Source: Exiguobacterium sp. FSL W8-0210 (lineage in GTDB: Bacteria > Bacillota > Bacilli > Exiguobacteriales > Exiguobacteriaceae). Taken from it: 64,000 nt of DNA. Under the pieces are notes generated by a model. It had not been told where the DNA came from, ran no database searches, and saw only the letters and a list, made by a program, of their open reading frames with translations. This document shows positions 23,182 to 58,695 of this stretch, piece by piece. Location: the NCBI RefSeq assembly GCF_038006045.1, contig NZ_JBBOUK010000001.1, positions 341,001-405,000 of the forward strand, written 5' to 3'. The position numbers were made by a program, and so were the translations under genes. Position 1 is the stretch's first letter. Every line of letters starts with the position of its first letter.

Positions 23182-24280
23182 ATGAAAAAGGCGTTCATTA
23201 GTACAGTCACGATTGGTGCCATGACAGCAACTGTCTTAGCGGGATGTACGGGAAGTGGCGAAGACACTACGAGTGGTGGCAAAGAGGTCTTAAAGATCTG
23301 GTCGTTTACGGATGAATTAAAAAAAACCAATCAAAAAATTTAAAGAAAAGAATGACGTTAAAGTCGAATTGACGATTGTGCCGATGGCCGACTATCCGAC
23401 GAAGTTGAAACCAGCTCTTGAAAGTGGCATCGGAGCACCAGATATCTTCACGGGTGAAATTGCCTTCTTGAAACAATGGGTCGACGCTGGCTACTGGGCA
23501 AATTTATCCGAAAAGCCGTTTAATGCAGATGACGTCGCAAAAGACTATATTCCGTATGTATTTGACATGGGGAAAGATAAAGAAGGAAACGTGCGTGCGC
23601 TCTCTTGGCAAACGACGCCAGGAGGCATTTACTACAAACGAAGCATTGCGAAAAAAGTACTCGGAACAGACGACCCGAAAAAAATCGGCGGCATGATGAA
23701 TTCAATGGATGGGGTGTTTGAAGTCGCCGATAAGATGAAGCAAAAAGGCTATAAAATGTTCCCGGATGAAGGATCGATTCGTTGGTTCGTTCAAGGCAAT
23801 GATCCACAACCATGGGTCAACGACAAGCAGGAGCTCGTCTTGACCGATGCACGAAAAGAATATATGGACTACGCAAAAGAACTCCGTACGAAACAATATA
23901 CGGCCCTTGCACCGAACGCATTCAAGGACTTAATTCGCCGATTGCGGGCGGAATATACAGATTTACCGATCTATATTACAGAAAACGGAGCCGCATTTGA
24001 CGATGAGCTGATCGAAGGACGGGTCGCCGACCAAAATCGAATCGATTACGTTGCGCAACACTTGCAAGCAATCTCGGATTTGAACGAAGAAGGCATGAAT
24101 ATTGATGGCTACTACTTATGGTCGCTTCTTGACAACTTCGAGTGGAGCTTCGGTTACGAAAAACGCTTCGGAATCCTTTATGTCGATTTCGAGACACAGG
24201 AACGAATTTGGAAAGACAGTGCTTATTGGTATGCGAACGTGATCAAGCGACATAAAGCTACGCTTCCCCAAAGCGTATAA
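23182..24280 (+). pseudogene. Chimeric remnant: sugar-binding lipoprotein fused to GH1 beta-glucosidase tail
   Basis: Begins MKKAFISTVTIG with lipobox LAGC and a solute-binding protein body (KIWSFTDELKK..). A one-base length change in the 8-A run at 23319-23326 shifts the frame; beyond it ELTIVPMADYPTKLKPALESG continues the same protein. At about 23915 the sequence switches, in frame, to the C-terminal 115 residues of a family 1 glycoside hydrolase: LPIYITENGAAFDDE (nucleophile Glu), GYYLWSLLDNFEWSFGYEKRFG and DSAYWYANVI. The acid/base NEP region is absent. A deletion evidently removed the rest of the binding protein, the permeases and most of the glucosidase. Confidence 0.88.
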
Positions 24281-24287
24281 GGAAAAG

Positions 24288-24527
24288 GGGCAGACTCAAA
24301 AGTCAGTCTCTACAAAGATAAGGGTGGCAGAATGATGATCTGCCACCCTTATCTTTTAACAAAAAGAATGACGCGTCACGCGCCACTCCTACAGGAAAAA
24401 GCGCATTATGCGCTGTCAGAGACAAACAAGACCCGCTTTCCTGCTTGAATGAAGCAGGAAAACTGGCTTGTGTCTCGCCTGAGGAAAGGGCGTGAAAAGA
24501 CGCGTCATTCTTTTTTTGAGTCAGCCC
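24288..24527 (+). repeat. 240-bp multi-hairpin repeat element, copy 1
   Basis: Ends are inverted: GGGCAGACTCAAAA on the left and TTTTTTTGAGTCAGCCC on the right. Inside are a 17-bp stem AAGATAAGGGTGGCAGA with its inverse, an outer stem AAGAATGACGCGTC/GACGCGTCATTCTT and inner hairpins (AGCGCAT.., TTTCCTGCTT..). The same element lies inverted at 58456-58695. It contains no ORF and is probably a mobile miniature element or structured RNA, acting as a terminator for the chimera. Confidence 0.85.
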
Positions 24528-58455: not shown

Positions 58456-58695
58456 GGCTGACTCAAAAAAAGAATGACGCGTCTTTTCACGCCCTTTCCT
58501 CAGGCGAGACACAAGCCAGTTTTCCTGCTCCGTTGAAGCAGGAAAGCGGGTCTTGTTCGTCTCTGACAGCGCATAAATGCGCTTTTCCTGTAGGAGTGGC
58601 GCGAAACGCGTCATTCTTTTTGTTACGAGATAAGGATGGCAGATCATCATTCTGCCATCCTTATCTTTGTAGAGACTGACTTTTGAGTCAGCCCC
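58456..58695 (-). repeat. 240-bp multi-hairpin repeat element, copy 2 (inverted)
   Basis: Inverse copy of 24288-24527, beginning 5 bases after the ROK stop. In the long central hairpin one pair differs from copy 1 on both arms (G-C replaced by A-T), so the stem is kept. Ends GGCTGACTCAAAA / TTTTGAGTCAGCC. Confidence 0.88.

Follow-up and report, generated by a model that had tools for sequence, protein, structure and literature searches.

The closest described relatives of the element analysed here are IS1272 and TnSha1 of the IS1182 family in Staphylococcus. Both use hairpins as targets, several of them being terminators, without following a sequence rule, the hairpin being deleted wholly or partly, no target duplication being formed and both orientations being found at one site (PMC4923244, PMC5678879), and the second account puts forward a model in which attack at one or the other foot of the stem decides between duplication and replacement of the target (PMC5678879). 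Hairpin replacement is already published for IS1272/TnSha1 of the IS1182 family, and the miniature transposable element (MITE) present in the window, i.e. the whole analysed stretch of 64,000 nucleotides from Exiguobacterium sp. FSL W8-0210, resembles these elements in the replacement of a hairpin, the lack of target duplication and the occurrence of both orientations at one site. IS1272 and TnSha1 are autonomous or composite, whereas the window MITE is 240 bp long and geneless; it contains a conserved structured core. Palindrome-duplicating IS1182-type elements of the Bacillales carry the same core before their transposase gene, but duplicate the target hairpin that the MITE replaces. REP/BIME elements with their RAYT transposases are small, folded, intergenic and present in many copies, features all shared by the window MITE. 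The bridge RNA of IS110 is a structured non-coding stretch at one element end beside the recombinase gene, comparable to the core as a structured non-coding stretch near an element end and next to a transposase gene, whereas the targets of the window MITE, unlike in the IS110 system, have structure and not sequence in common.

Copy 1 of this hairpin-replacing MITE occupies positions 24288-24527 (plus strand), 7 nt past a stop codon, and copy 2 positions 58456-58695 in inverted orientation (minus strand), 4 nt past a stop codon, which bears out the coordinates and opposite orientations given in an earlier sequence-only reading of this DNA; both copies are 95% identical by BLAST. Read along the plus strand, copy 1 is composed of a left terminal inverted repeat (GGGCAGACTCAAAA, 24288-24301), a spacer, a long hairpin of 18 pairs with a 7-nt loop (24314-24356) which is missing from short copies, the left arm of an inner inverted repeat (AAAGAATGACGCGTC, 24363-24377), the core (24373-24500, its sense being the minus strand), the right inner arm (24499-24513) and the right terminal inverted repeat (TTTTGAGTCAGCCC, 24514-24527). 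In copy 2, the core has its sense on the plus strand (58482-58609), and the hairpin module (58629-58665, plus strand) shows an A-T pair where copy 1 has G-C. Both cores match the covariance model R1, with 140.3 bits for copy 1 (G000:C1:365373-365500, G000 being the own genome) and 132.1 bits for copy 2 (G000:C1:399482-399609), each being itself among the 18 cores used to build the model. Terminal inverted repeats of the GGCTGACTCAAAA type pair about 230 bp apart; the inverted ends described before are thus present, the left end of copy 1 having one mismatch to the repeat as quoted (GGCAGACTCAAAA). The longest start-to-stop reading frames comprise 40 aa in copy 1 and 48 aa in copy 2, and the statement that no ORF is present holds in practice. 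Folding of 24288-24527 yields z-scores of -13.4 and -13.9 for the two strands with 0 of 200 shuffles being equally good. Copy 1 contains four terminator-like sites, three on the minus and one on the plus strand, and the 400-base stretch around it holds five compared to 0.4 expected from shuffles.

The change from G-C to A-T with pairing being kept, reported for the two window copies, is confirmed in an alignment of 40 copies from 16 genomes, i.e. those copies that had become loci and not all copies, in which the respective pair of the long hairpin is GC in 35, AU in three and GU in two. Over the whole alignment, 95% of the cells are paired in the structure, compared to 93.5% in shuffles, which remain highly paired because the copies are so alike. 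Changes on both sides of a pair are found in 12 pairs (5.5 in shuffles), six of these being located in the long hairpin, i.e. six of its 18 pairs.

The element is not restricted to two copies as assumed before, both of which are there. A BLAST search with copy 1 against the own genome returned 64 matches, many of them being fragments or the two opposite arms of one and the same copy, including 15 of 228-240 bp, one of 200 bp with an inner deletion and otherwise short forms, and MITE matches are present in all 19 genomes of the genus that were searched, the own genome included. The proposed search for further copies and covariation hence yielded many copies with covariation, the opposite of the many copies without covariation that had been named as refuting. 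By simple ORF calls, a stop codon is found no further than 30 nt from each of the 15 full-length copies, on both sides in ten of them. In two copies, L019 (G000:C1:1528968-1529202) and L030 (G000:C1:1814457-1814627), the core runs opposite to its usual orientation with respect to hairpin and ends, which would fit a flip between the inner inverted repeats. Four short copies (L016, L021, L022, L023) have a left flank resembling the leader of the G004-type element and look like two-core composite elements. A segment of about 1.7 kb that has inverted ends of its own seems to have inserted into one MITE copy at G000:C1:638706-640625, dividing it into L024 and L025. Immediately ahead of copy 1, the ORF at 23369-24280 begins like a sugar-binding-protein gene and ends like a beta-glucosidase gene, both named by eye; in the close relatives G012 and G011 these two portions are separated by about 3.5 kb, and a deletion seems to have fused them in the window.

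To read the state of the sites before insertion, the flanks of 19 copies were sought in these two relatives. Each of the 15 readable empty sites holds a hairpin where the element sits, its sequence being different each time. The first 12 of these hairpins fold at -13 to -36 kcal/mol, and the three sites read further are hairpins as well; that of L013 is weak, with seven pairs in the fold, and in one relative is not the best-folding stretch of its surroundings. Two short copies, L017 and L018, are also present in the relatives, and L006, for which no match was listed, and L016, with a repeated flank, were left out of the count. The clearest site is that of copy 2, where both relatives have 42 nt containing a long perfect hairpin at exactly this position: the window reads atttaatgaa, element, cttgttattc, and the relatives read atttaatgaa, a hairpin with 17 or more perfect pairs, ttgttattc. 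At the site of copy 1, G011 has a 28-nt terminator hairpin stretch and G012 the whole element inverted, and a related terminator is kept in the ten loci read out of 14 fetched from more distant congeners. The presence of the related terminator in G011 and in the distant congeners argues for the hairpin being the older and the element the newer state. Among the genus matches listed, that of G012 is closest to copy 1 (99%), and judged from this comparison it was likely inverted in place, a second insertion being the alternative. Inspection by eye of the 12 copies whose empty sites were first compared revealed no direct repeats flanking the element. Comparison of filled and empty sites thus gives good support to the element taking the place of a hairpin at gene ends without target duplication. 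No duplication flanks the element because it replaces its target, and the earlier suggestion to look for target duplications at its borders, none of which are seen, would have been misleading as a test. The same site occupied by a hairpin, the element or the inverted element constitutes a natural replacement set, which shows how a mobile element can substitute for gene terminators, at what is probably a low cost.

The core of about 105-130 nt, for which R1 was built from 18 cores of the own genus, has a wider distribution than the MITE ends. R1 has 42 matches in the own genome, one being a small partial match opposite another; 26 are MITE-borne, including short copies without the other hairpin, and 15 lack a MITE end repeat nearby, and no R1 match is present at three further places with end repeats (L062, L064, L065). 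A pattern scan of named genomes found at least 118 stretches, and the 80 loci listed belong to Exiguobacterium, Lysinibacillus, Sporosarcina, Planococcus, Psychrobacillus, Paenisporosarcina, Ureibacillus, Mesobacillus, Robertmurraya, Peribacillus, Neobacillus, Rossellomorea, Fredinandcohnia, Lederbergia and Bacillus, plus a Bacillota MAG, a sample that is not random as the pattern fixes part of the core. The class-wide search with the model, at reduced sensitivity, has matches in 36 of 299 genomes, belonging to 11 of the 118 genera covered. In an alignment of 79 distinct cores, including those of Exiguobacterium, 90.6% of the cells pair; as the alignment had been fitted to the model, this share is biased towards pairing. 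Double changes affect 23 of 34 pairs and amount to 280 cells; shuffles give 91, with 0 of 500 reaching the observed count, and slid controls no more than 76. Further pair types do not exceed the shuffles in number (51 vs 50.9). The unpaired junctions are conserved and a U-G pair is invariant (79/79) across genera, while the third arm is mostly an Exiguobacterium feature. Taken alone, Bacillus-type cores fold modestly better than shuffles (z of -1.2 to -4.5 in seven), some falling short of the model fold. Rfam gave no match at gathering score for the window and six loci with other core types; at a permissive threshold, microRNA, CsrC and other hairpins appeared as weak matches far under their gathering scores and were rejected. 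Searches of the open-licence literature with short sequence strings of the core gave unrelated papers only, with no recognised description of the core. This conserved folded module before IS1182-type transposase genes across Bacillales, with no Rfam match and shared by the MITE and full-size elements, deserves a family entry.

The link of the core to transposase genes was assessed with six transposase proteins representing four IS1182-type groups, which were compared with the loci available. Out of 88 cores, 79 outside Exiguobacterium and nine in elements of the genus, 44 have transposase homology within 700 nt, which in 41 of the 44 lies downstream in the sense of the core, at a distance of 37-80 nt in 33 of these 41; these counts are not independent, since many are copies of one element per genome and some transposase genes are truncated. 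The exceptions are L283, with a second, inverted core 31 nt past the 3' end of the transposase gene, L275, where a second core upstream points away from the transposase, and L240 with transposase homology at 22% identity. The arrangement at L283:3963-5600 comprises a core at each end of a single transposase gene, in inverted orientation. Two transposase groups being just 24% identical to each other carry the core, with scores of 80.6 bits for the G006 element and 20-26 bits for the second group. The G006 element is ordered as end repeat, core, hairpin with T-tract, transposase, 3' hairpin and end repeat (GAGGGTGACTCAAAAG), its transposase matching the Pfam families DDE_Tnp_1_6, DDE_Tnp_1 and DUF772; the MITE keeps from this order end repeat, core, hairpin and end repeat, the end repeat being similar. 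Two other transposase groups, the G000/G005 and G002 types, show no core match, and the former, core-less group has about 20 copies in the own genome. None of the 22 PF13751 matches in the own genome is core-bearing, the nearest core start being 2.6 kb off, and the nine copies with ends read have a different end repeat (GAGGCTGGGACATAAC); a matching autonomous element was not found among these 22 matches, ends having been read in nine. Among the matches listed for the 19 genomes searched, a protein more than 40% identical to the G006 transposase comes only from G006. Palindrome-duplicating core-bearing elements are represented by two B. massiliglaciei copies and a Planococcus unit in which no transposase gene was read, and both duplication and replacement of the hairpin thus exist among core-bearing elements. 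In G004 and G018, three IS1182-type elements (L159, L174, L151) have a palindrome beside the left end, which is duplicated on the right in L159 and L174.

Taken together, we consider it very probable that both window copies are members of a non-autonomous IS1182-type MITE replacing terminators. Multiple copies, terminal inverted repeats, empty sites and the module common to autonomous IS1182-type elements support a MITE, in line with the folding miniature transposable element that had been one of two proposals. By analogy to the published mechanism of IS1272, an IS1182-type transposase would recognise the folded hairpin, cut it out and link the element to the two stem feet left behind. Its inverted ends together with the inner hairpins may serve as a two-way terminator, so that insertion would cost the host little. 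Less certainly, the core might be the retained 5' leader of the parent transposase gene, as suggested by its fixed place before transposase genes, and in the full-size element such a structured leader might limit transposase expression from host transcripts entering via the replaced terminator. The data lend weak support to this leader control: sequestration of the ribosome site by the core is not consistent over nine leaders (mean pairing of 0.07-0.89), and scoring one Bacillus leader for terminator-like sites gave none. The conserved module makes it a testable question whether IS1182-type transposons use a structured leader for control or as a cofactor.

The strongest competing view is that the core is a DNA-level signal, i.e. 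a folded single strand or cruciform near the element end bound by the transposase, in which pairing is selected in the DNA and not in a transcript and MITEs keep the core because it is needed for movement. It is consistent with the enzyme family targeting hairpin DNA, as far as described in the accounts of IS1272/TnSha1 (PMC5678879, PMC4923244), with the 26 MITE-borne cores of the own genome, which include short copies that lost the other hairpin, and with the inverted core past the transposase gene in L283, placed as an end signal might be. It also fits the counts of G-U versus A-C mismatches in the sense strand, which show no wobble signal in two Exiguobacterium sets (20 vs 32 and 8 vs 17); in the wide set the counts are 59 vs 34, with one possibly misaligned column giving 36 of the 59. 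The wobble-pair counts do not prove that the core acts as RNA, and of the structured RNA proposed in the sequence-only reading the strong covariation stands, whereas the sense wobble counts in Exiguobacterium do not favour RNA over DNA. However, nothing in a DNA signal would tie the core to the sense orientation seen ahead of the transposase gene in 41 of 44 cases, and the G000/G005 and G002 types, the first being abundant here, do without a core match; we regard this view as a serious possibility that falls short of an even chance.

Covariation could also result from hairpin-templated repair, in which a change in one arm is copied into the other by template switching and pairing is kept without selection. 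The high pairing of the MITE copies and the double changes in the accessory hairpin are compatible with this, and the core inverted in two copies as well as the whole element flipped at one locus suggest that strand switching may occur, so that template-switch repair could cause part of the covariation within MITEs. As an explanation of the core it is rather unlikely, since junctions and the invariant U-G pair are conserved across genera while the stems change and the core keeps its place before transposase genes.

We assign a low probability to the core being a working RNA or folded single strand of IS1182-type transposases which derives from the leader, is bound by the transposase and is required for hairpin targets to be found or cut; if true, this would be a DDE transposon family with a structured nucleic-acid cofactor, in which MITEs survive by keeping the core.

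Similarly doubtful is the proposal that the Exiguobacterium cores lacking MITE ends are host 3'-end RNA elements, i.e. terminators or mRNA stabilisers, from which the IS took its module. Of the 15 end-less cores, 14 cluster at G000:C1:2343549-2812451 (2.34-2.81 Mb, about 0.47 Mb) of the 3.11 Mb contig. The proposal draws on a pair of mutually facing cores at one shared position in six of 19 genomes (G000, G017, G012, G010, G003, G007), five of which have a gene of about 273 aa next to it and proline dehydrogenase beyond, on a core directly 3' of proline dehydrogenase in seven of 19 genomes (G000, G005, G008, G015, G009, G004, G013), and on all three two-core regions of the own genome having cores that face each other from convergent genes. 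Yet convergent regions make either orientation sense, and because sense orientation is automatic there, an apparent 3'-UTR sense signal was withdrawn; in tandem-gene regions two cores are sense and two antisense, and the 79 cores outside Exiguobacterium have no orientation bias (22 vs 21), and a sense 3'-UTR function of the end-less cores was rejected on these counts. The cores near proline dehydrogenase could reflect either host use or repeated terminator replacement; a joint alignment of them spans both kinds of position and does not count as evidence for a single locus. At G000:C1:2403861-2403928 no gene of about 273 aa intervenes, and the core adjoins proline dehydrogenase. A tRNA link of the cores was likewise discarded, none being seen in 11 loci.

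An ordinary MITE of unrelated origin inserting near gene ends with the core as a passenger, in favour of which no matching transposase was found in the own genome, is highly improbable and already largely refuted by hairpins being replaced at all 15 sites read and by the core being common to two IS1182-type groups. An identity with REP/RAYT systems was rejected as well, the sole Y1_Tnp gene of the genome being broken and R1 finding no core at its locus (L070). This broken RAYT-like gene (G000:C1:1653830-1654182) is located close to an IS1182-type transposase gene.
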